Below, in pieces: positions 1,881 to 55,561 of a DNA stretch of 64,000 nucleotides (within the stretch, counting starts at the first letter, position 1; each line of letters starts with the position of its first letter). Under the pieces are notes generated by a model. It worked only from the letters and a program-made list of their open reading frames with translations. It was not told the origin of the DNA and made no database searches. The stretch is taken from NCBI GenBank assembly GCA_916610825.1, contig OU744449.1:5893243-5957242 (forward strand), read 5' to 3'. Origin of the DNA: Haliclystus octoradiatus. Lineage: Eukaryota > Cnidaria > Staurozoa > Stauromedusae > Haliclystidae. The translations under genes were made by a program, and so were the position numbers.

Positions 1881-4800
1881 GTAAGTGAATCATGGAGATT
1901 ATCATTATACTTTGGAAATCTATCGGTTGGATTTCCACTGGTTTGAATACTCCGTTACAGGGTCTGATAAAAAATTTTGCCTTCCGAAATCCAAAGATTT
2001 TCGAAGTGAAACCTTCGGATTTTTTTCCCGACATATAATTAGAAAATTGGTCTGCTATTGATTTCATTGCCAATGCTCCATCCAGTTTAGATGTGAACTT
2101 GTAAAGAAATATTTCAGACCTTGCTTTATATGTAAACAAACACTGATAATCGATTGCTGAATGTACAAATAAGCTTCAAAAATCCAAAGGTTATAAGTTT
2201 TTCTTAATTTTTAGTAGAAATCTTATTAAAAAAGTTGATCATTATCTGCCTGCGGATTTCAGCTCAGCCTTCCGCAATCTAGGATCGCAGGATCACAACT
2301 TTTATCAAACCCTGCTTTGTTATCACAATGCGAAGGAGAGACGGTTTGACGATAATGTCTACCCTTGATCATGTCTTTTCATTTATTAAATATGATGATG
2401 CGTTGAATATTCTACATTCCACAAACAACATGCCTTTCCAAAGGTTGATGCCCGTAAATCATGCATTAGTCAGTCGAAAGCCCTTGCTCACACTCGGGTT
2501 GGCTGGATGTTAGATTTAAACATAAGAATTGTATTGGCATGCCATGTAGACTATGGTGGCCTATGGCCTGTCCTGTAATGCGATCACAATCATGCAGTCA
2601 CAAACTGAGACAATCTGGGAACATGGTACCAGAAAAGCCAGTTTGTCAGTAAACTGATTTCTTATTTGAATTATTATTACTGTATTAGAAACTTATATTA
2701 TTTTAAAAATGCGTTAACTTTCATATTTCTAGACTAACATTTACATTTCTTCTCTTATGAATTTTAAAAACAAGAATGACTTTAGTATAGTGAAAATCAA
2801 AATCCCTTCTCTCGGATGTCTATCCGGTATAATAGAATCCCAGCATTAGCCAAACGAGTGAGAATGTTTACAACATTCTCAGAACAACTGAATTGCTCAA
2901 ATATGATGCTCATTTGGCCTGGACTTTATAGTGTCTCTCAACTGCATCAAAAACGTTAATATTGACTAGATGTTTTGTGGTCATGTCCTTTCTAACTGTT
3001 TTCGGATAAACTTGTGCAAATTCGGTTAAATGCAATGGAAATCGTTGGTAGTTTTGTCTTGCATTCAAAATGGATTACTTTCTATTATATTAATGTTTAT
3101 ATGTTAATAGAACGTCACAGATCACGAGTTTATTCCGTTACTCTGAGTTTCGAGTAAAAACTCTCTTCAGACGGTTTATTGAAAGAAAAATTATTTATAA
3201 ACTAAAGAGCGTTTCTATGCGAAATTCAGAGTACGGCATAAACTCGTGAACTTTCTGAATGCGAGAGTGCTCAATGCCTTACAACAGAGCGTGTAATATA
3301 ATTATGATATAAATCTATATGTTATTTATAATAATAATAATGAGAATGCCAAGAAAGACACATTCTTTGGTTGTAACTCCAAGTTTCACGTTATTATCAG
3401 ACAACAAATACTAACAAATGTTTTTTTTTACTTTCTCATTATTATTATTATTTGTGCTCTGCTATTCACTAGCATTGAGCACTATCTAATCACCAATATC
3501 AAGTTTTAATATTTGCAATATTATTACTATATATATTTATATTATATTTATGTTATTTATATTTAGGTTGTGGTGGTATCTTCAAAGCAGACAGTGGCTC
3601 AATCACATCACCAAATTATCCGGATGTGTATCCTGATGGCAAATTATGTACCTGGGTTATAGTTGTAAATGACCAATCACGACTTGAATTACAATTTCAA
3701 GATTTAGATGTTGAAGGCCCTGAACCATGTCGTTACGATTCTGTTACAATTCGTGATGGTCCAGATGATAACTCCTATTTACTAGCAAAATATTGCGGTT
3801 TTCAGATACCTAAGAAAGTAGCTTCATCTAGTAATGTACTTATGGTGCAATTCAGTTCTGACAGTGCGTTTTCGTCACGCGGATTTAATGCAACGTGGAC
3901 ATCGGTGCCTAAAGTATCAATTAATACTGGGACAGGTTTGTAGTTTTTAATGGTACATATAGGCTATTTGAAATCAGGACCAATAACAACAATAGCATCA
4001 TCATTGTTCAGTAATCTCGCGTAAGTTCTCACATAAACTTATTTACAGGGGAGCTGACACATAGCATAGTAAGTTATTCTTATTCAGATACACAAGTGAT
4101 TTAGCACCTAATGAGGTTAATTTATTTTTTTACATGAAGACTTCGTGATTCTTCAGCACATTTAGTATGCAAGAAGTCCAATATAGGTCTATGCAATCTT
4201 TATTTTTGATCGGCTTAAGCAAATATTGAAAATTTTACCCCGTAATCTTTTTGGTGGAATATATTACAGTTTAAAACTGGCCTGTGTTCACTCTTTACCT
4301 TCGTTGGTTAACAATAATCGGCTGTAGAACGAATAAAATGATAGACATATCATGTTTTTCTGTTCTCCATTATTAATAATTCTAATAAATGGTGACACCC
4401 AGAATCGACGAGGTAAGTCTATACAATCTGTAAAGTAATATATATATATAATTATATAAAGTAAAGGAAATGTGTGGGCAAAACATCAATTTGAGTGCTC
4501 AATGCTAAAGCAGAGCAATATAAATAGTAGATCAAAGATCACGAGTTTATTCCGTTACTCTGAGTTTCACGTAAAGACGCTCTTCAGACGGCTTTATTAA
4601 AATAATTTTAATAAAACCGTCTGAAGAGCGTCTTTACGCGAAACTCAGAGTAACGGAATAAACTCGTGATCTTTGATCTACTATTTATATAACTATATAT
4701 ATATGGTCCCATTGAAAAAACAACCAATTGCCAAAAATTTTACAAAAAGAGCCTTCTTGCGATGTACATTTTGAAACTTTTTTGAACCCAATTTTAGGTC

Positions 4801-7800
4801 TACATAGTGGTACACTCTCTAATATCTATCTATAGGTAGTTTCTTCCCTTGATTGGTTGCATAATTTATCAATGAGAGGATACTACTACACAGATTGTAG
4901 ATTACGAATTGACCCGGACAAGAGTTTTCCTTAGTATAGTGATAAGCCTAAGATCAGAAACAATCTGCTGGAATGAAATCAATCAAAAATCGGATAATAC
5001 TAAATAATTTGATTACCAAGATATCATTCCAATGACCCTCTTCTTCCGTTTCACAGTAGCAGATAATCATCACTAATGATATTATTCCATTTTAGGACCA
5101 TCTCTCTACGGACCATGGAGTTTATTAGCAGTTCCAACTGATATTGTTACAATGGATACTGGACTAAGTAACGTTATATGGGCAATTGATGATGGGGATA
5201 TAGTTTATGTTTTATCTAATGGAAAATGGCGTTTAGTTGAACGAAGATTAAGTGACGTCACTACAGGAGATTCTGGAACATTCGGTTTGGATAAAAATGG
5301 TCAAGTGTTTTTTAGAGAAGGGGTATCATTGGCAAAACCTGAAGGAACAAATTGGATAGATTTATCATCAACAGAGAAAACACCAAATTTACGAAAAATT
5401 GATTCAGGAATGTTTAATTTTGTATTAGCAGTTGATGGAAGTGGTAGATTATATTACAGAGAGGGTATAACACGGTCTAACCCTAAAGGTCAATCATGGA
5501 AAGTGTTATTAGATAATGATGGCATTAGGGATGTATCTTGCGGGACATATTCTTGCTGGGCTATCCGTTATAATAATGAGATCATAGCATCACAATATCC
5601 AATGTCATTACAACCAAAAGATATGAAATGGACTATTATGGGTACACAGATTAGTAGTGTCTCTGCGGGATTTGGGGGCAAGGTTTTTGTTCTTAATTCT
5701 GACGGAGAAGTTTTTAAAAGGGATGGTATTACCGGGGCCAATCCTTTAGGGAATGCTTTTGTTAAAGTTCAAGGGAGAATGTTATCAGTAATTACAAGTG
5801 GATTACCTGGAACAATTGGTGTTCTTAAAGATGGACGTGGTATCAAACACGAAGGTAAGGCTATAATGGAGTTAACGAAGTCTTCATATATGTATAGCAT
5901 TAAAGTACCATATTTTACCAGATGGGATGGCTAAAAAAGGAATTGTATTAGAAAATGCTGCGGCATATGGCTGCCTGTCGTTAATGATGTTCAAATTCAG
6001 CTGTATAGCATTGCACCTGCCTAGCAAGATCAGTTAATAGGTATTTACAATCAAAAACATTGTCCGGTTTGTTGATGCTACAATAATAAAAATATTGTAA
6101 TGCCACTTACGTTTTATCTGTTCTTTTCCCGGGGTGATTCCCCTGATTGTGTTTTCTTTTCTTGTTCGATGTATACTCTTTGATAGGGCTTTATATTATA
6201 GAAACATATACGAAGCCACTCTCATAGCAAAGCATTAAAATATGGCAAGGTTTCAAATTTTATATTAAACGTTTGTTTCTTCAGATTCCTATATAATGCA
6301 ACCATAAATTATTTATTATATTCATTATGTTCTTAAACAACTAATATATTTTTATTTTCAAATAGATATCGAATGTGGTGGCGTTTTAAGTTCAGAATCA
6401 GGCACATTTTCAACACCAAATTACCCTAAAGAATATCCACCAAATGTTCATTGTTTATGGATTTTCAGAAATCGTACAAGTAGAACTATTAAATTAGATT
6501 TTCAATCTGACGTTGATATTGATCATCGTGAACCATGTCGTGATTATATATTAACATACGCTACTGGCACTTATCCATCGCCCACTGGTGTTACATGTTC
6601 TAGAAATACTGGTGCATCAACTTTTACAAATCAAGAAATATGGATTGAATTTCAATCTGATGATACGATTGAAAAATCTGGATTTAAAGCTACTTACAAT
6701 ATTTACAATGAAGTACCAATTACTCTACCTCCTACGACAACTTCTGCGACGACTAGGAAGACAATTGTGACAACTAAAAGAGTAACAACACCAACTGTTC
6801 CAACAACGCCCAAACAAACAACAGAAAAATCAACAACAGGTATGTTAATGTGTATAAATTATCGCTAATATAAATTAATTATTATACATTAATAAATTAA
6901 CTAGAATAGACACGTTACACGGAGTTTCACGCGTTTACTTTGCGTTCACCAGACTGTTTACTAAACTTTTTGCTCAACTTTTTTTAAACTGCTTTTGCCT
7001 CATCTTTGTGTCTATTCTATATTATGCTCTGTCTTAACAAACATTGAGCACTCTCACATACATGTGTTCACCTCATATTATATTTATAATATTAATAAAT
7101 TAATTATAAATTATGCTGTTTTGCCTCAATACATTTATAATTATAATGCATTTATTTTAATTGATGCTAATATATGTATATATAGATATGATATCTTTAT
7201 TGATGGCAAAACATCAATGGAGTGCTTGATTCAAATATGCAGAGCAGTATAAAAATGAAATCAGACATTAGACGTTGTATCCGCTAGTCCGTTACTCAGA
7301 GTTTCACGCGATATCGCTCATCAGACAGTTATTATTAAGAGGTTCAAAGTTAGTCTGACGAGCCCTATCGCAAAACTCTAAGTAACGGTGACAACATCTA
7401 GATAATCTTTGACTTTATTTCTAAATATTCTTATAAATATGTAACATATAGTTCAAATCTATGGTTCCTATGGGGGTGTCATCCTAGAATCACGGATCCA
7501 ATTTTTTCCAAATTCATGTCTCTGCACCCATTTTTGTGTAATTTTTAAACAAGACGACCATGAATCTAGACTGAAACAAGCAGAATAAACTGAGCGTCTG
7601 AGTGTTTGCATGAAGCAGAAAGCAAATTTCCTGTTAATATAAATAATCATTATAATACAATAGAACCATTAGAAAACGTCACTCATCTCGAAATCAATTA
7701 TCATTCTTTCTTTCGAAATTATGTTCATTATAGCGATTCCATTTCCATCTGATTGGTCCATTCTTAAATTGGAGAATAATTACAAGTATGTCATTCCAAA

Positions 7801-10800
7801 TACGCACTCGTCATGGTGGGGTGTTATGCCTGATGGTAGAGTTTCCATTTACGATGGAAAATCATGGCGTTTTCTAGATGACAACACCCGCATTCGTTAT
7901 ATCTCTATTGGCGAATCTGGTAAATGGGCCGCTACGAAAGACGGACGAATTGTCTATCGTGAAGGAGTGTCTGATAAAAATCCAGATGGTTATACATGGC
8001 TCACAATTACACTTGAGGGTCTGAAAGATGTAGTTTCTGGTCCGTATGGTCTTGTTTTTGGTCTAAGAAACGATGGCCAAGTTGTATATCGATATGGTAT
8101 TACTGAATTAGTACCTTATGGCACACAGTGGCAAACAGTCCCTGGAAATATGAAAAATATAACTGTTGGTACTTATGGGCTATGGGCTCTTGATGATTCG
8201 GGTAATACGTATTTTGGTTCTGTAAGAAGGAATCCAAGTACAACTGATATCACGGTGTCATGGGACCTAGTTCCTGGTATCTTTAGTACTTTACAGACTG
8301 GAGAAGACGGAAGTGTATGGGCGATTGATATTGATGGTAATGTGTTTACAAGAGAAGGTGTCAATGCACTCAATTCAAAAGGTTCACGTTGGATAAAAAT
8401 TGATTATATATCTGGCAAAGAAATTAGCTCTGGTTATGGTAATGTATTAGTTGTCGATGGCAATGGGAATTTAATTGTTAAACAAAGTAAGTATAGGCTA
8501 CATTTTATTTGTTTTGCTGGACCTAATATAAATATATCGCACGTTTGACTCCGGCTCGACGGACCATAGTTGAGTGACATATGAAGTCACATTTACTTGA
8601 TTCATATAACTATTGTAGGCAGGATGGTCAAAACGCCACACACGGATAGTCCCGCAGAAATGATTTAACTTGAGATCCTCACAGCAATAGGTCCCACCCA
8701 GCCAATAAAAATTATTTGCATTATTTCTGGAATTGCCTTGCATTCGATAAAAAAGACAACTTAAGACAACTATTCATTTAATTAAACTCATCTTGTGATG
8801 TATACATTATATGTGATAAATGCGTGTAAAAATCAAGAAACGAACAGCACATTTATTAGATTTCTTTGCATCTTTGCATACATCTTGCTGGAATACATTC
8901 CATGAAAGTAGCTGACTTTCTTTCGAAGTCTTTCATGAATTTACTAATTTAAACTACATAGTGCTACTACTACGACAGCATTGTTTAAGCCAGGAATTTT
9001 GATTTAAGGTCAATTGTTGTTATGAATGTTACACCTATGACGTAATCTACTTTTTATATTCATGATATGAATTATGTATTTCAGAACCTTATTGTGGTGG
9101 TATTTTAACTGACAAGGAAGGATCATTTTCAACACCAAATTATCCACTCAGCTATCCGTCATCAACAAAATGCATATGGGTTATTCGTGTACCATACGCC
9201 AAACGAATTGATGTTCAATTCATGAGTTTTAATCTAGAAAGTTCTCCACGATGTTCTAAAGATCGAATTGTTACATTTCCTTCTGGAATGTATTTTAGTA
9301 ATGACCAACCTGTTGTCGAATGTGGAAGTTTGATTGCTGATAAGGTTGTTAATGGTAACGAATTTTGGATTGAATTCAATTCAGATGATTATATCAATTC
9401 AAAAGGATTTCTTGTTAAATATAAATCATATGATGAATTACCCCAACTCGTAACCACACCAACTATACCAGCAGCAACAACAACAACAACCAAACCACTA
9501 AGTAAGTAGACAAATCATCGTGTAAATAATCGGCTATCTGAAACCTGAGGAGTTGAATAAAGCTCTCTATCTATTTATGTAGGCTACTATATCACATCAA
9601 AATAGACATTAATTCTGTTACACACACTTGTTGGATTGATCCCGGGGAGTAACTTCCATTGCGCTTCGAATTCAATTATTTGAAAAATGTGTAGACGATA
9701 AATGATGGATTTCATTCGATCTGTCCTACCTGATTCAAATCGTGTCCCTTTTTTCTCTGATATTTTATTAATCTGCGTTTCAACCAAACTTTTTGTTCGA
9801 CTTTATTTATACGAACAAAGACGACTTTCTACGTAAAATTGCGTCCGAAACTGTGTTTGATATATTTGGTTCGATGTATGATGTACGCAGCAATATCCTA
9901 ATTAAATTGTCTATAGACACCTGTACTTATTAGTCATGTCGGGCCATCCGTATTTAAAGGCATAAAGTTGACCATCGTACCTTGCGTGCTCAAAGTTTGA
10001 AATCAATGCCATTTTTCAAGTCAATCAGTGCATCACACAACAAATCAGAAGATCAAATGCAAAGGCTGCCGGTCAATTTTATGCCTTTGAGATGCCATGC
10101 AACAGAAATCGTTAGTTCTCGAATCAGCCTATAATCGTCGGGTAGCTATTGGGTAATATTTGAACTCAACAATACTCAAATGAATATAGTTGCATCTGAC
10201 AGTTCAGATTAACCTGCATCACAGTCGTCACAGATCAAAAACATGTCGATAACATTAGACAAGGACAAGGACAAGGGTAGTGGTCCCAAATTTATTGAAC
10301 CCTGCCATTAGATACTCGTTATATACCATAGTACTAGTGTTATCAGATGTTGTTTTTTTCTGTTACCCCGGGGAGAAGGGGACTTCGATATTTTTGACAG
10401 GGCTATGCCATTTTCAAAAATCGTAGAGGTCATGTCACATCAAGAATAATTTGAGATTTCAAGCTGGTACCACCAGAACAAAGGAAAAGTTCAAAATTTC
10501 GATAATACTCAAAATTGATCCCATTAAATTTACGAAGATCTGTAAGAAGGTAGCCCCTCAAAAACAGAGCACGTCTCATACAGCCAATCTATAAAAGTAC
10601 CCCCCCTAGTCTGTTATTGCGTATGCTAATATTGTCAAGATTAGGCGGGAATCCTTCACAACTCGCTTGCTCTTTTATCGCGCATCTTTTGGAAACGGTC
10701 ACATTAGAAGAAATCCTTGATCAATTGTGATAGTTATTTATCATCAAATTAATTCAATTATATGTTTATTTGCTTGAAAAGTGTAACTAATTGTCGGTGA

Positions 10801-28800: not shown

Positions 28801-31800
28801 TACGTAGTTGACAACTATGTCGAGTTAAACAGTATTGACAGTTATACGAAATATATATTATTTGTCAAATGCATATTACGAGTCTATGCATAAAAACATG
28901 TGAGGAACAAAAAAAGTAATATTAGATATGTGCATTCAGGTCTGTTGTAAATTATAAATTATGCATGGCTGTTACTTTCTTCCCCTTTTTACTTTATTGG
29001 GCCGTGGGCATTTCTCACAAGGTGGCACGCCCGTCGACGTATTTTACGAAGTCACCCCCCCCCCTTGCAGCAGTTACTAGAAAAATCATGGACAGTAATT
29101 ATATTGACTTAATGTCTTTCCTATAGGTATATGTAATCTTGGTACCATTGTTAACGGTCGATATGGACGCATCACATCGCCAGGATATCCATCCGATTAT
29201 CCAGTCAAACGATCATGTCAAGTATTAATCAATGCACCATCAGGATATTATATCGAGTTTAATGTACGATCAATCGATATCGAAAATGATGAATCGTGCC
29301 GATATGATCGGTTGGTATTCTATAACGGAGATGATTCAAGATCGCCTAAAATAAAACAGATTTGCGGTTCTTCATTACCTGGATCATTTTCGAGTAATAG
29401 CAATAGAGTTTTGGTACAATTTGTATCTGATAATAGTCGTACCGGGAAAGGATTTGAATTTATCTGGCAAACAAAACCCATTTTGGATTTTACAACTCAA
29501 GCGACAACAGTTGAAGTCACAACTGCACCAACAGTTGCAACAACAACAGCTTTCTACACAGGGCAACGTAAGTCTAGCTTAACTGACATTGGAATAATTC
29601 AGACATTCATGGTAATTTTAGACTTTTAGCAGATTTCAGACTATTTTCCCCCACAAGTGGTAAAAGTCTATTTATTACATTTTCCCATCAAAATCCGTGA
29701 ACATTTATATCTAGATTGCAGACTATTTTCAAGTTTTGAATTCTCACTTCTGATCATTACCAGGGTATCGCTTCTGTGCTCAAATCATACTGGAAAGTTG
29801 TTATATAGAAGGATATCTGGAATAGAAGGAAAATGTACTCAACTGTATGTACTCAAATGTATTGTACAGGTTGAGTAATCAAATGTATTCAAAATGTACT
29901 CTTCTATATATGTTGCTATAGAAGGAAACTGTACTCAACTGCACCTATCTATGCGAATACAATATCTTTCAAGCTGTGACCCAAGTCTTTATTATTACCC
30001 TTATAGGGTCGTAGAGAAAGCTGGATAATTTTCAAGGGGCTCTGTCAATGTAAGAAGCCTGTGAAGTTCTCATTTTTACAGTTTAATTGGGTGTATAAGG
30101 TTAAATTTGTGAGATAATAACCGTAAAAGAAATTTCAGGGACATATTAACAAAAATCATGCGTACTTTCCATTTATGAATGGAAACAGAAGACCACCCTA
30201 ATTGTATCAGCTTTTGCTTTGCCTGTCTGCGTATGTTTTTCAAAGATATCCCACAACCACGGTCGTATAGCTACTTGCTTCTGATCGGGGGTATTTGTCA
30301 ATTTTTCCAGACGAAATGGGGTGATCTATTCATCAGTGTAAATTATATTGTTATGATTATTCAGCTCCTGTGTGTGGTGGCCGTCTTTATGGATCACGTG
30401 GGTCCATCACTCAACCAACCATCGAACAAAGATTACCTCTTAATGTAACATGCGTTTGGATTATTGAAACGGGAACAGAATCAACGTTATCGTTAGATTT
30501 CACCGATCTCCGTTTAGACGATTCCGACTGTGAAACATCTTACATTGTTATTCATGACGGTATGACATCGGATGCACCTGAACTTGGACGGTTTTGTCGT
30601 AACCGCCTACCAACAGTAATAGAAACGTCTGGAAATATGGCTCATGTTGAATATCGTTCTGATATGAGTAGAGATAGAATTTTCTTTCGATTGGATTGGA
30701 ATGAAAAATCAAAAGCATCATCACGTAAGTTAGACAAATTATTATCAAATATATTAACAAAGCTGACTATAGGCCTACTGTTTCAACGAGTTTATATTTT
30801 ACCGTTAGTCTGCATGCGAGCAAGCTAAGAATTCCTTGGAATAGCTCATACCCTCATTCTCTGTATCCTCAACCCTCTAAAATACTAACTCTTATCTTTG
30901 ACAAAGTGAAGTAATTTATCTGGAATTGGTGGTTCTCAGAATCCTCAAAAGTCTCAAAATTCATATTAGAAGACTATATTTTTCGTGACATATGTTTTCA
31001 CACAACTGATATGCATCACCCGCATTGCTGTATAACTTCTTTCATTTTTGGGTTGTCAAAGATATTCTGCTTTAATATATGCACAATGTAACGATCATTC
31101 ATTTTTTATCTTTTTTTGTAAAATTGTCCATTTATTTGGGCTACGTTATGATGTTCGAAATGAGCCGCATAAATCTTATAAATAAACATTATCATCAAAG
31201 CTGCGTGCGTGGAAGTAGCCCATTGCTATCACTGTAATTAAACACTGCATTCTTTTTCAATACGTAATTGAGAAATTTTGGATACAGAAATCGGACCAAG
31301 AGCAAAGTACAGTTGAATCCGGCATGCTAGGGAGACAAACTATTTTACCGGTTTTGGCAGAATCCGTTGTTAGCGGTAAATATTTCGTAAAGTTTGACCG
31401 TAAATTACTCGGCTTTGGATATTTTATCATTTTTGGCTTACACTGTTATTGACAGAATACCGTTAAAGTCGGAACCGTTATTGCCGGATTTTACTGTATC
31501 TTTATCCTGAACAAGACTAGAATAGAAACTCAAAATTTTGAAACTATGAACTTTTTTTTACCTAAAAACACAATTCGAACAGAATAGCATATTAAATTGA
31601 CAATTTTCCTTTCTTTCAGAATTTGCATGTGGTGGAATATCAACCAGTGTTTCTGGTACGATTACATCTCCAGGATTTCCACTTGCATATAATAACAACG
31701 AATATTGTATGTGGGTATTAATGGCAAGATCAAAGAGAAAACTAATCTTAAAAATAGATTTTATGGATCTTGAAGACGGTAATTCATGTCAATCGGATTA

Positions 31801-34800
31801 TCTGATTGTAAGAGATGGCGATTCATCCATAAGTCCACTCCTAACTAAAGTATGTGGTCAACAAAGAGGACTTACATATACATCAACTGGTAATGCAATG
31901 TGGATTGAATTTAAATCCGATTGTAAAACTAAAGGTCGTGGATTTAGAGCAACTTGGGAAACACAAACATTAAGTGGAACACCAGACCGTGCTGTTAGAG
32001 AACTCGATGATTTGATTGACATTGAAAGTACACATATTCCTACAACTTTACCTATAAAAACCATGTCTATTCTCAACGGTGGGAACAGTGAAGGTGGCTT
32101 TATAAGTGGTCTTTCAGGGGTGATTGAATCTCCAAGATTTCCAGCGAATTATCCATCTAAAACAACAATACGTTGGCATTTACAAGGTCCGTTAGACAGT
32201 AAAATTCATTTGAAATTTCATTCATTCAATCTTGAATCCGATCAAGAATGTCGTTATGATTTTGTTAAACTTCAAGATGGCGCATTGAGTGAACCGGTAA
32301 CGGCGCGATATTGTGGACGTACTTTTCCTGCTGAATTTATATCTAGTAGTAATAATATGGTGGTTACATTTGTTTCTGATCGTGATGTTGAAGAAAGTGG
32401 ATTTCAAGCAAGCTGGATGTGGCTAGATAATAATATGGAGAAAGATGTCGCAGTAGCATCTGGAGCTACAGGTAATTTTACTCTTGCTCCTATCCATCTT
32501 GCCTTGAAAATAATTTACGACGGAGGAGGGGAGGGGGGTGCCAATTCAATTTCAGAAATTTGCCCTCCAAAATTTTGTTTTTGCCAAATTGATACCTTGC
32601 ATGAATATTTTTTCAGAGCAAAGTGTACACCCCAAATATTTTTTATCGATTCATATTGAAAATTACAGCTTCATGGGTTTACATCAACCCTTTTTGCTCT
32701 TTGAAAAACGATGCCTAAAGTTATTTGTAAATTCTGAAATAGATACCCCCAAAATGTTCAAAGACCGTGCAAAAGATACCTTCAATAATTGGCACTTCTC
32801 CGTATACCAACCATTTGAAGTTACCCCCGCTCCAGGCCTACAGTCTAGCTCGCATAGTATCCCTTTTTAAATGCCCCACCTTGCTTTGTATCCCTAAAAA
32901 AATTTCATGTTCCTTCAATGCTCAATATCCCACCTTGTTTGTATCAGTAGTTTTCTAATATTTGTTTTACTAATAGAATAACAAGCAATCACAAAAATCA
33001 GCAGGTGTTCTATACAGTGTAGCCTGCAGTAGTTAGATGTATTATTTGTATTATGAAAAGTGATCGCATTAGTCAGGTTTCTCCATATTACAGGTTATTC
33101 GTATTCAACAATACTATCAAGCAATGTGACCAAGGTGTCTACTACTAGAGGTTGTATTTGCTGAATTCAACGTGTTTACAATGTCTCCAAACAGCCATGT
33201 ATGCATGTACTAGAACTGTAACGCTAACAATGTCTCAGTAATGCCACTCAGCCATCTTTAAAACACTAATTTTATTTACTGTTGTTTATTCTTAAAGGTT
33301 GTGGTGGAACTTTAACTGGTGAAAATGGTGTCATAAAATCACCATTGTTTCCCAGTAACTATCCATCCGAACAGGATTGTACATGGATTATACCAGCGAA
33401 GAAAGATGAAACAATTATATTATCGTTTTCTTCATTTGACTTAGAAGCAAGTTTATCATGTTCCTTTGATTATGTAGAGGCAAGTATTTTATTTACATAA
33501 TCTTGTAATTTTACTCCATACTCAATGTGATGTATATATACGGTGTGTACACGCAGATAATAACGATGCAGGCATTCCACACTCGCTAACTTTATTGTCA
33601 TCATTGTGTTTGAAAAGATTTTTGTGCTGCAGGCCTTCTTGGACAGAGTCTGCTACTTCAAGAAAATTTTTCTTGGCCACCCTGAAGCTATCATGAAGGC
33701 CTTCTGTGATGTTGTGATGAAAGCGAGAGAACAAATTTTTGTTGTTGATATAGACTTGGATAACTGTATGCATAAAAGTTAGCTTACTTCAAAAAAAAAC
33801 ATTCGTGTTGATAGCTGGTATACATTTTTGACATGTATAGGGGCATTATAAGAGGTAGAGCTTACATTTCACATTGCTTGAAAATTAGCCTCTTGAACAT
33901 TTTATCAGAACTCTAAATACATGTGCGAACCGGAATGTATGCCCCAACCCCGTTTATCTAACAAATAATGCAAGTAGAAGCAGTCATATTGTAAGATTTC
34001 TCTCATATAACCCATTTGAAAACTCAGAACAGATCCCTCGGAATGTTTTTAATCGGATACTCCTTAAAATTTGCACGTTGCTACTTACAATTACTACAGC
34101 TACGTCTGGGAGTCTCTCAGGCTAAGCTTACATCAAACTTTGTTACCATTCTAGGTTAGGGATGGAACATCAAAGACTGGTCCTGTTGTTGGTAAATTCT
34201 GTGGTCCTTATTTACCGTCCAATGTGGTATTACGCAAAGAGGGTGCTAGAATCACTTTCAAGAGTGATTCAGTTACATCAAGGAAAGGATTTACGATTTA
34301 TTGGCAAATTAATAAAATAAATAACCAAAGAAAGAAAAGAGGACACTCTAATAATAGTAAGAGAATTTTATCCGGTTATTATTATTGTATGAATTACTCT
34401 ATTAGTGTTTAATTTAATTTAAACGATCTCAAGATCTCGTCAAGACCATTAGACATGCTTTCTAAAAGCCCGGCCAAATAACTTTTTATTTCACCAACAT
34501 TGGTAAGATTTTGCCAAATCCTAGCAGTTGTTGAATGAGCTTCACTACCTATATGTGTCCTCCTCTGCCTTATTCACTATGGCGTGTAGCTTATCAGAGG
34601 TGTACGGTGTCAGAATTTTCAGACTCTGAATCCGAAAAAGTCGTAAGTCTTGCTTCGAAAATTTGAGAGAAGTAGACTCCGGGTCAAAATGTTTGAAACA
34701 AACTCATGGAAAAAGTCTAAACATTCTTCCGACAGTTCCGACGGTCCTGCTTGTTTGACATTTCATTATCGCACAGCTCTATCTGAAATGTGGATACTCC

Positions 34801-35793
34801 TCCCGGAGTCCCGGAATTGGAGTTTGACTCCTACTCCAATACACTTCTGATACTTATATAGCTTTCCAGGGTGTAAATGCACATGGTTATCGATAGACTG
34901 TATTTTGCAACCGCAAATGTATTTCCACTATTTTCATGATCTTAATTGATTATATACTCTGAAAACTAAGGGTACACATGGTGTACCGATCGATCTACCC
35001 TTACATAGATCCCCAGGGTACTTCTTGGGTACCGATTCAGATGATATTCTGTACCCTTTAAAAATGGTACCCCAAAAACTGCTTTCTTAACGGAAGCTTC
35101 ATCTAGATAGTAAATTTTCAAATGTATGAACAATATTCTGACAAACCGTGAGTCAAATTCAAATATTGCAAATGTGTTTTCATTCCAATATTCTTCTTGA
35201 AATTTTTGTAGAATGCGGTGGTAAACTTCATGGATTTTCTGGTACCTTAAACCTGCCATCAACAGAAGACAGTGGACAACTCTGTAAATGGATTATCAAA
35301 GCACCAAAAGCAAAACATATCAATTTAAGAATCAGAAAACTTCCTTTTGATATTAATGCCTCTTGCGATAGAAATAAATTACAAGTTTATCAAGTAAATC
35401 GTACAGGGGAATTCAAGAAAATTACACTATGCCCAAAGGATGTTGTTGGTTTGAATTTTGAAGAAACATCTTTGTTGTTTGACGGTCATAAAATTGGTGT
35501 ATTTTTAATATCTGAAAAACCTGTGAAAGTGGATTCATTTAAAATGGGTTGGATTGCAACTAAACGGAGACACCTTTTTAACGTTTTAGGTAAGTCAAGT
35601 GTTTACTTAATACTGCATGAGTGGAACATAATTTGAAAATGTTTATTCTAACAATTGAAACATTATTAATAACAAGCAATAAGGTTCCTGCGTTGCTGGG
35701 TTACTTTAAGCAGAGTTAAAATTACTTTTTTTTATTAATATATTTATTTCTTAAGATATTTTTTCAGTCTTGTGCATGATCAATCATGCATAG
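1848..35793 (+). CDS. Giant CUB/tectonin multidomain protein gene (5' end not found; span covers the exons listed below)
   Basis: Twenty-six coding exons can be joined on splice sites and reading frame into at least 3,577 residues: 17 CUB domains, five tectonin propellers and short Thr/Ser/Pro hinges. Almost every exon starts and ends in phase 1, so each module is a self-contained cassette. The modules are extracellular types with the usual CUB disulfide cysteines, so the product should be secreted or surface-anchored. No transmembrane segment is visible in the exons found, and no signal-peptide exon was found in the first 1.8 kb. Tectonin propellers in Limulus L-6 lectin, fish egg lectins and Physarum tectonin bind bacterial or cell-surface glycans; CUB domains mediate Ca-dependent protein contacts. 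The inferred role is multivalent recognition of surfaces, perhaps immune or egg-coat related. Introns not described separately hold AT-rich sequence in which I recognise nothing beyond the repeats listed. I know no named family with this architecture. Confidence 0.85.
3115..3292. repeat. Foldback element, copy 2
   Basis: The left arm holds ATCACGAGTTTATTCCGTTACTCTGAGTTTCG and CTCTTCAGACGG (key parts); the right arm holds the complementary motifs (AATTCAGAGTACGGCATAAACTCGTGA in part). GAGTGCTCAATG and ACAGAGCG follow as the shared end. Confidence 0.65.
3328..3486. repeat. Foldback element, copy 3
   Basis: Arms with TAATAATAATGAGAA and TTCTCATTATTATTA surround a degenerate core (GTAACTCCAAGTTTCACG, ATCAGAC). 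The end TGCTCTGC and CATTGAGCACT is shared with other copies. It directly follows copy 2 and ends 80 nt before the CUB 1 acceptor. Confidence 0.6.
3567..3935 (+). CDS. CUB domain 1 (gene 1 exon)
   Basis: This phase 1-1 exon of 123 codons is one complete CUB domain. It starts at CGG and contains SPNYP, the second cysteine in LCTW, the third in CRYDSVTIRDG, the fourth in KYCG, and ends with GFNATW. All four cysteines of the two CUB disulfides are present. The Glu (VEG), Asp (YDS) and Asp (SSD) of a Ca-binding CUB are in the expected spacing, Glu eight residues before Asp. It belongs to the classical DxxxxRDG subtype. Acceptor is atatttag and donor acag|gtttgt. The next exon is tectonin 1. Confidence 0.93.
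4518..4690. repeat. Foldback element, copy 4: 173-bp near-perfect palindrome
   Basis: The two arms of about 86 nt differ at only about two positions. Each arm carries AAAGATCACGAGTTTATTCC, GTTACTCTGAGTTTC and GCTCTTCAGACGG. The flank to the left has GAGTGCTCAATG and AGCAGAGCAATATA. The near identity of the arms implies recent formation or conversion between arms. Confidence 0.85.
5096..5854 (+). CDS. Tectonin beta-propeller 1 (gene 1 exon)
   Basis: One phase 1-1 exon of 253 codons encodes six tectonin-type repeats, at about residues 16-49, 50-92, 98-139, 142-183, 186-228 and 229-252. The repeat signature is DSG..(V/W).(A/G)(I/V)D..G.(V/L)(Y/F).R.G(I/V)T..NP.G..W, seen for instance as GRLYYREGITRSNPKGQSW. 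The N-terminal strand GPWSLL probably closes the last blade (velcro closure). Unlike the other four propellers it has two close cysteines (SCGTYSC, blade 4). The family binds LPS or glycans. The donor gaag|gtaagg is at 5,855; the open frame simply runs on to a stop in the intron. Confidence 0.92.
6366..6839 (+). CDS. CUB domain 2, tectonin-following subtype, with long Thr-rich hinge (gene 1 exon)
   Basis: This 158-codon phase 1-1 exon has a CUB domain (IECGGVLSSESGTFSTPNYP, HCLWIF, EPCRDYILTY, VTCSRN, IWIEFQSDD) followed by a hinge of about 45 residues that is very rich in Thr, Pro and Lys, likely mucin-type O-glycosylated. It is the subtype found after every propeller, with ILTY replacing the VRDG strand. 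The third-cysteine segment is CRDY instead of CxxDY, so the Ca-ligand register is shifted and Ca binding is doubtful. Acceptor caaatag; donor acag|gtatgt. Confidence 0.9.
6901..7075. repeat. Foldback element, copy 5
   Basis: Left arm TAGAATAGACACGTTAC with GGAGTTTCACGCG and CACCAGACTG; right arm TGCCTCATCTTTGTGTCTATTCTA. The right end has TATGCTCTGTC, AACATTGAGCACTCTCACAT and GTGTTCACCTCATATTAT, shared with copy 7. Confidence 0.65.
7203..7425. repeat. Foldback element, copy 6
   Basis: Left end GGCAAAACATCAATGGAGTGCTTG and GCAGAGCAGTATA; core GTCCGTTACTCAGAGTTTCACGCG and TCATCAGACAG, with a right arm CTGACGAG, GCAAAACTCTAAGTAACGG. The same GCAAAACATCAAT start precedes copy 4. Confidence 0.65.
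7734..8486 (+). CDS. Tectonin beta-propeller 2 (gene 1 exon)
   Basis: This 251-codon phase 1-1 exon has six tectonin repeats; examples are GRIVYREGVSDKNPDGYTW and GQVVYRYGITELVPYGTQW. The SDWSIL strand at the start is the expected closing strand of blade 6. It has no cysteines, so the propeller is not disulfide-braced. The acceptor is attatag at 7,731-7,733, upstream of no usable start codon, so the apparent ATG in the intron at 7,721 is not the protein start. The donor aaa|gtaagt lies at 8,487. Its role is as for propeller 1, by family. Confidence 0.92.
9085..9501 (+). CDS. CUB domain 3, tectonin-following subtype, Thr-rich hinge (gene 1 exon)
   Basis: A 139-codon phase 1-1 exon with PYCGGILTDKEG, STPNYP, KCIWVIRVP, RCSKDRIVTF, VECGSL and NGNEFWIEFNSDD, then a hinge of Thr and Pro that includes a run of six Thr. 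The four cysteines are intact, and Glu, Asp and Asp of the Ca site are present (LESSPRCSKD, NSDD). It is closest by eye to CUB 6, which also follows a propeller and shares the NGNE.WIEF segment. Confidence 0.92.
11052..11813 (+). CDS. Tectonin beta-propeller 3 (gene 1 exon)
   Basis: A 254-codon phase 1-1 exon with six tectonin repeats, the most regular of the five; typical strands are GEVVYREGITNNKPDGIAW, SLYYRTGITKGNPIGNGW and GLVYRRMGVSMSQPEGISW. Blade 4 is short and irregular (NVYFARGSTSNP), as in the other copies. The first strand GDWIRS is the probable velcro strand. Acceptor tatatttcag; donor ccag|gtatgt. No cysteines. Confidence 0.93.
13664..14050 (+). CDS. CUB domain 4, tectonin-following subtype (gene 1 exon)
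   Basis: A 129-codon phase 1-1 exon. It contains SDCGGIVSSERGSIRSPNYP, NCLWNIRVP, NCVNDWIAITDSYP, RICTTT and VEFVTDD. Four cysteines are present, but the Ca-site Glu is Gln (DIQTTDNC), so Ca binding is probably weakened. It diverges more than CUBs 2, 3 and 6 but is placed directly after propeller 3 like them. A short PVTLPT tail leads into the hinge microexon. Confidence 0.9.
15073..15111 (+). CDS. 39-nt hinge microexon (Thr/Pro)
   Basis: Thirteen codons in phase 1-1, TKPITLSTAPYD, between a pyrimidine-rich acceptor (ttcttccatag) and a strong donor (gatg|gtaagt). It only lengthens the O-glycosylatable hinge between CUB 4 and CUB 5. Because it is symmetric it could be skipped without changing frame. 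Confidence 0.72.
15526..15712. mobile_element. Small TIR element, family TACAGTNTAACCCGCTTA
   Basis: Ends TACAGTGTTACCCGCTTA and TAAGCGGGTTAGACTGTA are inverted repeats around 187 bp; the interior has ATTCGGATAA repeats. No open frame. A truncated relative is at 51,307-51,403 and a fragment near 3,000-3,060. Confidence 0.75.
16390..16791 (+). CDS. CUB domain 5, classical subtype (gene 1 exon)
   Basis: A 134-codon phase 1-1 exon: ECGGNFNAESGEF, SPSFP, KCSWVITAP, SCRYDYLLIKDG, RLCGSQ, FEADGTKEGKGFEISW, then a Thr/Gln hinge (QPITTQSTTVITK). Four cysteines and the Glu-Asp-Asp Ca triad are intact. The RYDYLLIKDG strand marks it as the classical subtype that precedes a propeller, like CUB 1 and CUB 7. 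Acceptor tttatag; donor aac|gtaagt. Confidence 0.92.
17230..17406. mobile_element. Small TIR element, family TACAGT(C/G)AAACCTGT
   Basis: Terminal inverted repeats TACAGTCAAACCTGTTATA and its partner TATATACAGGTTTCACTGTA enclose 177 bp with paired GGCCACC and GTGGTCA motifs. TA at both ends suits a Tc1/mariner-type target. It has no coding capacity, so it is a non-autonomous element. It ends 24 nt before the propeller 4 exon. Further fragments lie at about 40,534-40,628, 40,925-41,001 and 49,176-49,330. Confidence 0.75.
17431..18189 (+). CDS. Tectonin beta-propeller 4 (gene 1 exon)
   Basis: A 253-codon phase 1-1 exon with six tectonin repeats; GVWGIDRNSKIVYRDGV, TRYRYGISNDRPYGTAW and GEVFKRIGVSINQPFGTQW are clear blades. 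NGWEVL is the probable closing strand. The acceptor (tcaattctag) lies only 24 nt past a small inverted-repeat element, so the branch point is probably inside or at the edge of that element. No cysteines. Function as for the other propellers, by family. Confidence 0.92.
18278..18655 (+). CDS. CUB domain 6, tectonin-following subtype (gene 1 exon)
   Basis: A 126-codon phase 1-1 exon only 88 nt downstream of propeller 4, the shortest intron in the gene. Motifs: QCGGLLTEEQGTF, TPNFP, MCLWVIKVP, KCQKDYLLTYKSG, FECGNV, NGNEAWIEFASDN. Four cysteines and the Ca-site Glu, Asp and Asp are kept. It shares the DYLLTYKSG and NGNE.WIEF segments with CUBs 2 and 3. Confidence 0.92.
19177..19342. mobile_element. 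Small TIR element, family TACAGTTNAATCCGGCAATAACGG, copy 1
   Basis: Ends TACAGTAAGATTCGGCAATAACGG and CCATTATTGCCGAATTCAACTGTA are inverted repeats. The interior (TATTCTGTCA, AGTCCGA, GTTTGTCTCC) recurs in the copies at 31,308 and 44,805. Confidence 0.75.
19421..19825 (+). CDS. CUB domain 7, classical subtype, Thr/Ser hinge (gene 1 exon)
   Basis: A 135-codon phase 1-1 exon: CSRTYTSPSGTISSSNFP, NCQYVITV, GCNADHVTIGTS, KYCGNNIPP, TFKSDSSVSKNGFLLRW, then a Thr/Ser-rich hinge of about 25 residues. Four cysteines; Ca-site Glu (LED), Asp (NAD) and Asp (KSD) present. Like CUBs 1 and 5 it precedes a propeller. Confidence 0.91.
20384..21142 (+). CDS. Tectonin beta-propeller 5 (gene 1 exon)
   Basis: A 253-codon phase 1-1 exon, six tectonin repeats. 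Clear strands include GVWAVDTNGRALRRVGV, GNLYYRSGITKSRPAGSRW and GELYRRIGISYNNRMGLGW. LQWEDI is the probable closing strand. Blade 1 has an unusual IKEENRWKQ strand. No cysteines. It is the last propeller; from here to the end of the gene only CUB domains follow. Acceptor acttaccag; donor aaag|gtaaca. Confidence 0.92.
21399..21577. repeat. Foldback element, copy 7
   Basis: Arms ATAGAATTGGTACAAAGATGA and TCATCTTTGTACCAATTCTAT are exact complements; the core is TCCGTTACTCGGAGTTTCACGCG and its inverse. The right end has ACATTAAGCACTCTCACATACATGTGTTCACC in the same order as copy 5. Confidence 0.75.
21904..22183. mobile_element. G-run TIR element, copy
   Basis: The left end GGGGGGACTTCCATAC with CGGGGACGTGCCATTTTTAA and the right end GCCCCTCTCCCCGG are imperfect inverted repeats. 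Related sequence is at 10,365-10,606, 40,280-40,380, 43,226, 50,473 and 56,880. Confidence 0.6.
22318..22710 (+). CDS. CUB domain 8, tectonin-following subtype (gene 1 exon)
   Basis: A 131-codon phase 1-1 exon: YVCGGILTSLSGRFTSPNYP, SCLWQIKSP, LCTKDAVIVSR, IICGRS, VAIEFVTDG, then VVTTPKTI. Four cysteines; Ca-site Glu (VEQ), Asp (TKD) and Asp (VTD) present. An insertion of about six residues follows the third-cysteine strand. It completes the fifth propeller-CUB pair. Confidence 0.9.
23293..23331 (+). CDS. 39-nt hinge microexon (Thr/Pro)
   Basis: Thirteen codons in phase 1-1, TTTPTTKQPTTA, with acceptor ttattttctag and a weaker donor (gcac|gtactt). The composition is that of the neighbouring hinges and it is the same length as the microexon at 15,073. 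It joins CUB 8 to CUB 9. Confidence 0.68.
23604..23781. mobile_element. Small TIR element with ATATCCC repeats
   Basis: TACAGACGAACTCGGTTAATGTCCC and GGATATTTAGCAAGTTCAACTGCTGTA are imperfect inverted ends; the interior repeats TAATATCCC/TACCCCACCTTG. A related fragment lies at about 32,855-32,955. Confidence 0.55.
24235..24419. repeat. Dispersed TCCGACAAAAGTAGGAAT repeat, inverted copy
   Basis: GGATTCCAGGATTCCTACTT and TTGTCGGACA at the right and GGCATTTCAACAAC at the left match the 48,745 repeat in inverse. It ends about 50 nt before the CUB 9 exon. Confidence 0.65.
24472..24867 (+). CDS. CUB domain 9 (gene 1 exon)
   Basis: A 132-codon phase 1-1 exon: CRALLTDQSGTLSHPNYP, NCEWIIVAP, NCEWDYLEVSNG, KYCGTQKP, VFKSDENNERPGFLASW, then a short PVQPTTRPSQ hinge. 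Four cysteines and the Glu-Asp-Asp Ca set are present (IEKSSNCEWD, KSD). The acceptor is ttttcttttag; the ATG-initiated frame that begins 61 nt upstream is intronic. Confidence 0.92.
25806..26189 (+). CDS. CUB domain 10 (gene 1 exon)
   Basis: A 128-codon phase 1-1 exon: CFTTLRKDRGTLRHPGYP, DCTWTIIV, QCRYDILEFFDG, SFCGKRS, RFKSSNLPPQEGFSIRW, TTPP hinge. Four cysteines. The Ca-site Glu is Asn (SLNSDDQC) and the late Asp is Ser (KSS), so Ca binding is likely lost despite an otherwise classical CUB. The donor acag|gtaagc is followed within 10 nt by a long-inverted-repeat element. Confidence 0.91.
26199..26480. mobile_element. TIR element with about 65-bp inverted repeats beside the CUB 10 donor
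   Basis: The left arm AGCCTGCGCGCAGACCTACTG through AGCGCTGGCAGAATC is matched in inverse by GATTCTGCCAGCGCTTTGCAGACC through CAGGCT. The interior has no coding frame. It starts about 10 nt after the exon end, so only the first bases of the intron are native. Confidence 0.8.
26754..26900. repeat. Dispersed repeat (also at 38,459-38,602)
   Basis: CGAAATTTGAACAAAG, AAAACCTCGTTTTCA-like sequence and CTCAAAACTTGCGTGTCCCA occur here and again, in the same order, at 38,459-38,602 next to gene 2. Function unknown. Confidence 0.65.
27450..27827 (+). CDS. CUB domain 11 (gene 1 exon)
   Basis: A 126-codon phase 1-1 exon: CSLSYSGSDGIISHPSYP, DCVYRITVP, PCNKDFIEIRNG, RYCGSSSP, RFKTDLSNGGRGFLFRW, short TTPRQATT hinge. 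Four cysteines; Ca-site Glu (LED), Asp (NKD) and Asp (KTD) are present. Acceptor tttttatgtag; donor acaa|gttagt, which is somewhat non-consensus. Confidence 0.91.
27937..28090. repeat. Dispersed TCCGACAAAAGTAGGAAT repeat, direct copy
   Basis: GGTCCGACAAAAATAGGAAT, CCTAGATTCCG and GGAATGCCTCTAAAATTCC align with the 48,745 copy. It runs into the tandem duplication that follows. Confidence 0.65.
28077..28411. repeat. Tandem duplication, period 167 bp
   Basis: Two copies start CCTTTTGTCAAACCC at 28,077 and 28,244 and share GACGCTAGACAATCGTGTGA, AATTAGTATGGTATAAA and GTCCGTTGTCCGTGTTA. They differ at a modest number of positions, so the duplication is fairly recent. Confidence 0.85.
28499..28528 (+). 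CDS. 30-nt hinge microexon (Ser/Pro)
   Basis: Ten codons in phase 1-1, reading TQSTPSPSSD, between acceptor tcattattgcag and donor gatg|gtaagt. It extends the hinge between CUB 11 and CUB 12 and is similar in size and composition to the microexons at 15,073 and 23,293. Confidence 0.7.
29127..29567 (+). CDS. CUB domain 12 with Thr/Val hinge (gene 1 exon)
   Basis: A 147-codon phase 1-1 exon: ICNLGTIVNGRYGRITSPGYP-type start with a few extra residues, SCQVLINAP, SCRYDRLVFYNG, QICGSSLP, QFVSDNSRTGKGFEFIW, then about 35 residues rich in Thr, Ala and Val. Four cysteines and Glu-Asp-Asp of the Ca site are kept. The usual aromatic after the second cysteine (CxW) is Val here. Confidence 0.91.
30365..30724 (+). 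CDS. CUB domain 13, degenerate Ca site (gene 1 exon)
   Basis: A 120-codon phase 1-1 exon: VCGGRLYGSRGSITQPT, TCVWIIETG, DCETSYIVIHDG, RFCRNRLP, EYRSDMSRDRIFFRLDW. Four cysteines. The SPNYP turn is replaced (QPTIEQ), the conserved Asp after the third cysteine is Ser (ETSY) and the Glu is displaced, so Ca binding is unlikely. There is almost no hinge after it. Confidence 0.88.
31308..31498. mobile_element. Same TIR family, copy 2 (inverted orientation)
   Basis: TACAGTTGAATCCGGCATGCTAGGGAGAC at one end and CCGTTATTGCCGGATTTTACTGTA at the other; the interior runs in the opposite direction to copies 1 and 3. Confidence 0.75.
31620..32471 (+). CDS. CUB domains 14 and 15 fused in one exon; CUB 15 lacks the first disulfide
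   Basis: This 284-codon phase 1-1 exon is the only one holding two CUB domains. CUB 14 (ACGGISTSVSGTITSPGFP, YCMWVLM, SCQSDYLIVRDG, KVCGQQ) has four cysteines plus an extra one next to the Ca-site Asp (KSDCKTKGRGF). An acidic linker (RELDDLIDIE) follows. CUB 15 (GLSGVIESPRFP, TIRWHLQGP, ECRYDFVKLQDG, RYCGRTFP, TFVSDRDVEESGFQASW) keeps the third and fourth cysteines and the Ca residues, but where the first two cysteines belong it has NGGNSEGG and TIRW. Loss of an intron between two formerly separate exons is the simplest origin. Confidence 0.92.
33094..33150 (+). CDS. Possible 57-nt hinge exon before CUB 16
   Basis: Between acceptor atattacag and a weak donor (agag|gttgta) lie 57 nt in phase 1-1 that read YSYSTILSSNVTKVSTTR, a Ser/Thr-rich segment like the other hinges with one N-glycosylation sequon (NVT). 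Skipping it also preserves frame. The weak donor makes it a candidate only; it is not counted in the residue total. Confidence 0.35.
33298..33479 (+). CDS. CUB domain 16, N-terminal half; exon ends at a GC donor
   Basis: This 182-nt exon enters in phase 1 and ends in phase 0: CGGTLTGENGVIKSPLFP, DCTWIIPAK, SCSFDYVE. The frame reads on into a stop within about 20 nt, and the only sensible donor is gag|gcaagt, which matches the known GC-AG donor consensus AG|GCAAGT. The rest of the domain follows in frame at 34,155. Apart from the terminal CUB17 exon this is the only domain in gene 1 interrupted by an intron. Confidence 0.87.
34155..34356 (+). CDS. CUB domain 16, C-terminal half, with basic RKKR tail
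   Basis: A 202-nt exon entering in phase 0 and leaving in phase 1: VRDGTSKTGPVVGKFCGP, FKSDSVTSRKGFTIYW, then NNQRKKRGHSNN. With the previous exon it rebuilds a CUB domain with four cysteines and an intact Glu-Asp-Asp Ca set (LEASLSCSFD, KSD). The QRKKRG tail fits the R-x-K-R rule for furin-type convertases, unlike the Thr-rich hinges upstream. Acceptor attctag; donor aata|gtaaga. Confidence 0.88.
35212..35589 (+). CDS. CUB domain 17, divergent (gene 1 exon)
   Basis: A 126-codon phase 1-1 exon: CGGKLHGFSGTLNLP, LCKWIIKAP, SCDRNKLQVYQVN, TLCPKD, GVFLISEKPVKVDSFKMGW, TKRRHLFNVL. Four cysteines are present, but the Ca-site Asp after the third cysteine is Asn and the late SD is SE. It is Lys-rich and lacks SPNYP, so it is the most divergent CUB of the gene. 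A second basic cluster (TKRR) closes the domain. Donor ttag|gtaagt. Confidence 0.88.
35768..35793 (+). CDS. Candidate terminal exon of gene 1 (stop codon)
   Basis: A strong acceptor (tattttttcag) opens an exon that completes the split codon as Val and then reads LCMINHA and a TAG stop. A second AG 12 nt upstream gives the same frame, with DIFS added. AATAAA follows at 35,903. The rival candidate is at 36,322-36,374. If neither is used, CUB 17 could splice onward into gene 2. Confidence 0.4.
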
Positions 35794-35902
35794 CCGTTGC
35801 TTTGGAAATCGAAAGGGGGAAACCCTTGTTTTTGCTAATTTGCGGTCAGGAGCCGCAAAATGAAGTTCAATGAAAAAAATTTGTTTCATTTCGCTACAAA
35901 AG

Positions 35903-35908
35903 AATAAA
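35903..35908 (+). promoter_or_regulatory. Candidate polyadenylation signal AATAAA
   Basis: The hexamer AATAAA stands 110 nt after the TAG of the candidate terminal exon. In AT-rich DNA the hexamer is common by chance, so it supports that exon only weakly. Confidence 0.3.
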
Positions 35909-36321
35909 TGATAAATCGCAAACAGAAACGAAGCAGATGCGATAACCTAGTTTAATAATCACTTGAAAAAAATCAAGAGTCATGATTGGCGGATTTGTAC
36001 CACATGATGTGCAGTTATGTCAAGACAACCCACGACATCCCATGGCAACCACTAAAAGTATATGGGCTTCCGTGCTATGTCGGGTATAGACCCTTTTTAA
36101 ACATCAGCGGTTCTGATAATACACATATACAAAATATTTGGTTGAAAAATGACGAACTGATGGATGAACAAACGGTTTTGGAAACTCTATTTTATAGGTG
36201 AAGATAATAACAAAAGTAGCCCCATAATTATAAATTATGAAACAAAAAATGAGAACATTAACAATGCGAACAATTTTAAACTATATTTATAATAATCAAT
36301 TGGTTTCTGTTTTAACTTCAG

Positions 36322-36374
36322 CCTCAGTTGAATGGCTTGAAATCATATCAAAATCTGACAGTAGTTTTGCTTAG
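36322..36374 (+). CDS. Alternative terminal exon of gene 1
   Basis: The acceptor ggtttctgttttaacttcag is at least as good as the one at 35,767. In phase 1 the exon reads A-SVEWLEIISKSDSSFA and a TAG stop. It has no recognisable domain. Either this or the upstream candidate could end the protein, possibly as alternative C-termini. Confidence 0.33.
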
Positions 36375-37744: not shown

Positions 37745-37811
37745 ATGAAATATTGTAGTATTACTCAAAACATTTTATTAAATTTGTTTATTTTAATGGT
37801 ATTACTTCTTG
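37745..37811 (+). CDS. Signal-peptide exon of gene 2 (start codon)
   Basis: ATG opens a 22-codon frame with a positively charged start (MKYC) and a 13-residue hydrophobic core ([13 protein letters not shown]), ending at a consensus donor (cttg|gtaagt) in phase 1. That is the standard form of a secreted protein's first exon and its phase fits the next CUB exon. No polypyrimidine acceptor in frame precedes it. A clear core promoter is not visible upstream. Confidence 0.65.
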
Positions 37812-48744: not shown

Positions 48745-49166
48745 GGTTCAACAAAAGTAGGTATTCTGGCATCCTAGATTCCGGAAGGTTAGAGAAATTC
48801 AGAAGAAAATTGATACTTTTATGATTTATTGGTCAAACTTCATTCAGAAGAAAATTTGGAAATGCCTCTAGGATTCCAGAAGGGTGGGCCTTTGTCGGAC
48901 CATGTTTATAAGGACGTACTGAACGTTCAGAAGAAGATTTGGAAATGCCTCTAGGATTCCAGAAGCGTGAGCCTTTTGTCGGACCATGGTTATAAGGACG
49001 TACTGAACGTTCAGAAGAAAATTTGGAAATGCCTCTAGGATTCCAGAAGGGTGGGCCTTTGTCGGACCATGTTCATAAGGACGTACTGAACGTTCAGAAG
49101 AAGATTTGGAAATGCCTCTAGGATTCCAGGAGGGTCGGCCCTTCTCGGACCCTGCTTATAAAAACG
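48745..49166. repeat. TCCGACAAAAGTAGGAAT repeat with four tandem 83-84-bp units
   Basis: The dispersed repeat (GTTCAACAAAAGTAGG, ATCCTAGATTCCGG) is followed by four units that start TTCAGAAGAA at 48,843, 48,926, 49,010 and 49,093, each with GGAAATGCCTCTAGGATTCC and GTCGGACC. Single copies are at 24,235-24,419 (inverted) and 27,937-28,090. Confidence 0.8.

Positions 49167-55230: not shown

Positions 55231-55561
<331 letters not shown>

Follow-up and report, generated by a model that had tools for sequence, protein, structure and literature searches.

A stretch of 64,000 nucleotides of the stalked jellyfish Haliclystus octoradiatus (hereafter the window; positions 5893243-5957242 of contig C5) contains a series of exons in which tectonin propellers, CUB domains and a trypsin-like domain follow each other on the + strand. 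With a probability of about one half, we propose that they code for one secreted precursor, processed by a furin-type cut into a multivalent lectin that is stiffened by calcium, carries a non-catalytic protease head and has a probable role in defence. Such a precursor would begin with a signal peptide, continue with a lectin arm of tectonin propellers and interleaved CUBs and with a long CUB arm, and end in a C-terminal trypsin-like domain devoid of its catalytic serine. Its building blocks are all known; their arrangement is new, and we met it in one unnamed homologue, P0009. The whole genome comprises 262 Mb in 33 contigs, in line with the 262 Mb in 33 scaffolds stated in the genome note for this species (PMC9975415).

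Five tectonin exons and 17 CUBs occupy a single frame between positions 3567 and 35589 (+ strand, as are all exons given below). The first part follows the order C-T-C-T-C-T-CC-T-CC-T (C for CUB, T for tectonin propeller): CUB1 (3567-3935), T1 (5096-5854), CUB2 with a Thr/Pro-rich linker (6366-6839), T2 (7734-8486) and CUB3 (9085-9501), all placed by the gene model and Pfam; T3 (11052-11813), which is the reciprocal best hit of propeller 1 of P0009; then CUB4 (13664-14050), CUB5 (16390-16791), T4 (17431-18189), CUB6 (18278-18655), CUB7 (19421-19825) and T5 (20384-21142). Only CUBs come after it: CUB8 (22318-22710), CUB9 (24472-24867), CUB10 (25806-26189), CUB11 (27450-27827), CUB12 (29127-29567), CUB13 (30365-30724), CUB14 and CUB15 within a single exon (31620-32471), CUB16 in two halves (33298-33479 and 34155-34356) and the divergent CUB17 (35212-35589). 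From CUB4 to CUB12, the gene model and Pfam are joined by the alignment with P0009; T4, T5, CUB13, CUB14, CUB15 and CUB17 were also placed in trees. Thus, the alternation of propellers and CUBs that had been claimed for the whole feature is true for the first half of the protein, while the remainder consists of CUBs only.

The exons have phase 1-1 in 21 of the 24 modelled cases, with a frame open to a stop at 36374, so that the initial annotation was right in assigning one frame and one splice phase. The exceptions are the two CUB16 halves, the first with a GC donor (a GC-AG intron lies between them), and a tentative last exon (36322-36374, acceptor and stop only), which would serve as an alternative end if the tectonin part formed a separate, shorter transcript. 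Stop-to-stop frames of at least 120 aa number 31 on the + strand of the whole window versus 0-3 in 10 order-1 simulations, which rules out open frames arising by chance. A division of propellers and CUBs among several small genes was also ruled out, as acceptors and donors are in phase and P0009 is one chain.

No initiator exon was found within the left end of the window in a first scan; one sits to the left of it. This exon (C5:5892867-5892948, 295-376 bases left of the first base of the window) codes for a signal peptide, has a phase-1 donor and is likely the first exon of the gene. A 33-nt micro-exon (1848-1880, NCAITDGEST, phase 1-1) would join it, tentatively, as judged from splice sites and frame with no homology support. 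With 35589 spliced directly to 40005, the exons inside the window add up to 4,551 residues, which include no transmembrane-like stretch; the full precursor, signal peptide included, would reach about 4,580 residues if it is one transcript. The signal-peptide exon, the five tectonin domains and this absence thus support the proposal that the protein is secreted and has up to 30 blades. Within the first introns we observed a near-perfect, MITE-like inverted repeat (4518-4690, two 86-base arms 1 base apart) and a diverged relative of it at 3087-3184. Rfam gave 0 matches at gathering scores.

The five tectonin exons measure 759, 753, 762, 759 and 759 nt, that is, the 251-254 codons first reported, and all five propellers match Pfam Tectonin (PF19193) at 96-123 bits, against a cut-off of 30 (112 for T1, 95.9 for T2 and 123.1 for T3). 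To attribute six repeats to each exon is fair, but the repeats are uneven. We took three blades from every one of the five propellers to build a profile, which located six blade places per propeller except in T4, where it located five; the three blades used score 57-71 bits, and the remaining ones are weak, from 13 bits to below 0, so that three of six are weak by this profile. An AlphaFold2 model of T5, with the five propellers as alignment, reached a pLDDT of 91 and a pTM of 0.88 and has 23 strands, near the number expected from six four-stranded blades. Among solved chains, those closest to the propellers by sequence profile are tectonin 2 (5fsb, E 2.8e-22), which we take to be a Laccaria protein, and fish-egg lectin (4ruq, E 6.3e-21). 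The propellers are thus related to both by profile, and the strand pattern of the T5 model is propeller-like; in contrast, tectonin 2 and fish-egg lectin are single propellers of 227 and 238 residues, whereas the Haliclystus protein links five of them to CUBs and to a protease homologue.

Across the whole genome, tectonin matches amount to 16 rows, which correspond to this locus and three others; none of the three has a CUB match nearby in our CUB list, the CUB count being a lower bound. At one of them (L028, C11:77000-86500), a frame that we take by motif to be a CAP/SCP domain lies at 3414-5487, directly upstream of the tectonin exons and on the same strand; either this is another unusual fusion with tectonin, or two genes lie side by side. 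Another (L029, C6:27346500-27356000) has a hydrophobic leader-like stretch, and the third (L030, C4:24886000-24895999) is presumably TECPR2-like.

The gene probably does not stop at 35589, an end that had been set too early. Past it we found CUB18 in two parts (40005-40260, by Pfam and frame, and 40671-40816, by frame), CUB19 (41420-41803), CUB20 (42789-43196), CUB21 (44157-44525, by Pfam), CUB22 (45276-45656) and CUB23 (46292-46651), the other four supported by Pfam and tree, and two exons of a trypsin-type domain (47184-47334 and 47994-48573) with a stop at 48573. With a likely first exon outside the window, the feature is thus longer at both ends. On the sequence evidence, CUB18 to the protease domain are likely in one transcript with the upstream part. 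The direct splice from 35589 to 40005 is in phase, and both halves occur in one chain in P0009, in which no hydrophobic stretch was seen by eye at that joint. Both observations speak against two adjacent genes, namely one with tectonins and CUBs that ends at 36374 and another, with six CUBs and the serine-protease homologue, that starts from a signal peptide at 37745, P0009 then being a merged model. Such a split would draw on a signal-peptide-like exon of 22 residues (37745-37811), single-copy and with a strong phase-1 donor, which also splices in phase to CUB18 and could be an alternative start or the start of a second gene. It would also draw on the stop-bearing exon with an acceptor at 36322-36374, on the gap of 4.4 kb between CUB17 and CUB18, and on the second part alone, which gives a 1,034-letter frame complete with start and stop. 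CUB18 itself lacks its first cysteine and keeps the second. The junction codon reads Cys only if the upstream exon ends in T, and the cysteine is missing with either upstream exon considered because both end in G; the sole candidate for a linker exon within 35590-40000 also ends in G. Still, a gene ending at 36374 would have a furin-type site just before CUB17 that released one CUB only, and two other signal-peptide-like exons occur in introns with no suspected gene boundary. We regard two genes as unlikely.

These additional exons raise a further reading, which fits one gene as well as two: several internal starts could produce nested isoforms, lectin-bearing and lectin-free, of one protein with a dead protease. 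All three (4352-4412, 28465-28528 and 37745-37811) lie inside introns on the + strand, have phase-1 donors and are single-copy, a genome search having returned no second copy of any. None was found in 20 simulated windows, although the simulations do not have the patchiness of real DNA, nor on the opposite strand of the window, and 153,570 bases of other sequence from the same genome, both strands counted, gave only the true first exon; the thresholds, however, were chosen after the hits had been seen. Since the three are single-copy and absent from the controls, we keep nested isoforms as a live, if rather improbable, reading, and alternative first exons as a possible role for the three.

Evidence for a single chain comes from P0009 (EukProt gene3627-4141_t, unnamed, 3,926 residues), which has T-CC-T-CC-T, 17 CUBs and a serine-protease homologue in one chain. 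It was retrieved with the 3,557-residue model ending at 36374 as query, scored on propeller 5; a query of this size limited the search to proteins of about 1,960-6,220 residues, and from 1,161 candidates it gave P0009 (E 2e-112) and one bacterial protein. Two earlier searches had returned 3 proteins of 7,994 scored candidates, a search that was probably crowded by CUB words, and 5 of 2,003. Given that the query did not contain CUB18 and later domains, the matching CUB run and protease end of P0009 were not put in by it. Pfam finds in P0009 three tectonins, 21 CUBs and one trypsin domain; at E 0.001 its table has 10 families, including CUB and CUB-like, tectonin, a Hyd_WA propeller, trypsin and a sub-threshold CRF-BP_N.

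We aligned the two proteins domain by domain; the match runs from T3 to the protease domain and pairs, in order, 24 of the 29 units of the window with 24 of the 25 units of P0009. The colinearity score is 1546, compared with 1043 +/- 52 after the CUBs and propellers of P0009 had been permuted over their positions, and none of 2,000 permutations did as well. Reciprocal best hits exist for 13 of 29 units and not for the other 16; 12 of the 13 keep the order and 11 coincide with pairs of the alignment path, the exceptions being CUB6-C5, out of order, and CUB11-C7, in order yet not the pair of the path. The trees are less uniform: T4 and T5 pair with their P0009 partners, propellers 2 and 3 (2 of 3), while the pairing of T3 with propeller 1 is not resolved, and 9 of the 20 path CUB pairs come together (6 of them starred) and 11 do not, in a CUB tree whose bootstrap is not settled. 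Identity of each window unit to its best match in P0009 is about 29-53%. The two proteins share a signal-peptide-like start, T-CC-T-CC-T, the CUB run, a GDGGG homologue and a furin-type site at the matching joint; they differ in that P0009 is without the N-terminal C-T-C-T-C extension of the Haliclystus protein and has one extra CUB midway. P0009 is a gene model and could be a false merge.

All 23 CUBs exceed the curated Pfam cut-off (PF00431), and with them the 17 CUBs originally counted between 3567 and 35589, the weakest being CUB17 (26.4 bits versus 21.4, covering only positions 1-66 of 110). CUBs of complement proteins are known from their structures to hold calcium through a Glu-Asp-Asp triad. 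We found this triad in 16 of 23 CUBs here and in 15 of 21 in P0009, with 7 and 6 lacking it, so that, judged by the triad, most but not all CUBs here are putatively of the calcium-binding type. Five of the losses (CUB4, 13, 17, 22 and 23) fall on partner domains in both proteins. The triad is also missing in CUB10 and in C3 of P0009, the partners of which keep it, and in CUB2, which has no partner in P0009. In the CUB tree, all CUBs placed immediately behind a propeller, eight over the two proteins, fall into one group (support 95/84), and therefore a propeller and the next CUB were probably copied as a unit; the lectin arm probably grew by copies of this propeller-plus-CUB cassette.

The trypsin-like domain keeps its His, in the first exon, and its Asp; its catalytic Ser is replaced by Gly (GDGGGA instead of GDSGGP, in the second exon), and there is no IVGG-type activation motif. 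P0009 likewise keeps His and Asp and has GDGGGP, also without an IVGG-type site. Belonging to the trypsin family (Pfam Trypsin, 170.5 bits, second exon) and having lost a catalytic residue, the domain is a serine-protease homologue, and an active MASP-like protease was ruled out, the serine being lost both here and in P0009. Its best solved matches are enteropeptidases, among the best 60 of 556 at E up to 0.001. We fetched four other trypsin-like loci of this genome, and in the two where the GD-x-GG motif was caught it reads GDSGG.

Motifs of the furin type (RX[KR]R) occur four times in the protein, three of them inside CUB cores and the fourth, RKKR, at the end of CUB16 (second half). The single RX[KR]R in the 3,926 residues of P0009 lies between its CUB14 and CUB15, which is the same joint. 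Shuffled sequence yields on average 1.1 such motifs here and 1.7 in P0009, so that the observed 4 and 1 are no strong departure, and therefore only the shared place counts in favour of a furin cut.

On these grounds, we suggest how the precursor may work. A furin-like protease would cut between CUB16 and CUB17, leaving a lectin chain of 5 propellers and 16 CUBs and a seven-CUB chain with the dead protease. From their relatedness to solved lectins and from the confident model, we infer that the propellers may bind glycans or LPS, and on microbial surfaces they could do so with high avidity. The calcium-holding CUBs would stiffen the chain and dock partners, and the inactive protease domain, with no cutting of its own, might hold proteases of a cascade resembling complement or MASP, or compete for them. 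Peptides of human tectonin are reported to bind LPS, and its tectonin domains to bind M-ficolin (PMC2707011), which by analogy makes defence our leading guess; a loose form of the LPS pattern in that paper is present in 2 of the 5 propellers. Were the nested starts used, they would give lectin-armed and lectin-free giant CUB proteins with a dead protease head, and the furin-like cut would separate microbe-binding from cascade-regulating chains, a one-gene counterpart of a lectin plus a MASP; we consider this elaboration quite improbable.

The protein could instead be a structural part of the glue, mucus or body coat of stalked jellyfish, its propellers binding glycans of the animal or of its substrate and its CUB arm serving as a calcium-stiffened spacer. 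Stalked jellyfish are sessile, attach themselves and need glue and mucus; the very long repetitive arm with Thr/Pro-rich linkers and conserved domain order would also suit this use. Against it, recognition is a better fit for a protein whose protease head is dead and whose propellers are related to defence lectins; the literature match listed for Staurozoa, adhesives and lectins is, by its title, on digestive systems, and we met nothing in it for or against a structural role. We hold a structural role to be possible, if somewhat doubtful. If a recognition protein is the right reading, a non-bilaterian animal would have coupled microbe binding and a protease cascade in a single polypeptide; in either case stalked jellyfish, a little-studied class, gain a protein whose possible part in defence or attachment is testable by expressing its pieces.

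The claim that no named family has this layout still stands after one length-limited protein search and a literature search, the unnamed P0009 being the protein with the same order. Among the literature matches listed, which for tectonin and CUB largely deal with autophagy and for Hyd_WA have unrelated titles, we found no described protein in which a single chain combines tectonin propellers, an array of CUBs and a dead serine protease. The word tectonin appears 0 times in the main text of the Calvadosia genome paper (PMC6599738), and PMC2880987 was rejected as a paper on tectonin, CUB and serine protease, since "CUB" in it is a journal code in a reference. An uncharacterized protein of Branchiostoma lanceolatum (P0008) is likewise multi-domain, with tectonin and one CUB. 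It differs in its order and in its F5/8 type C, C-type lectin, EGF, SUEL lectin and pentaxin-like domains, and its Pfam table has neither a CUB run nor trypsin. MASP, C1r and C1s have the order CUB-EGF-CUB-CCP-CCP-SP. They resemble the Haliclystus protein in placing CUBs ahead of a trypsin-type domain and in the calcium triads that most CUBs here possess; here, however, the catalytic serine and the activation site are lost, there are 23 CUBs instead of two, and neither EGF nor CCP is found in the Pfam table of P0009 or in the part of the window exons that was scanned. Cubilin-type proteins, which are long CUB arrays, share the long CUB run but not the tectonins and the protease homologue. A second large CUB cluster with no tectonin match lies on the same chromosome (C5:8831076-8895848, - strand) and is likelier as the cubilin candidate.

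As for the surroundings, an 83-base minisatellite (48843-49169) follows the gene closely, and an array at 55233-55566 consists of 112 (TAT)n copies. On the left, a putative INSIG-like frame ~12 kb outside the window (L010) marks the neighbouring gene. Elsewhere in the genome, contig C33 has mitochondrial features that fit a medusozoan: COX1 has an in-frame TGA, and AGA at the Arg of the motif TDRNFN; a COX2-like frame lies beside it on the opposite strand.
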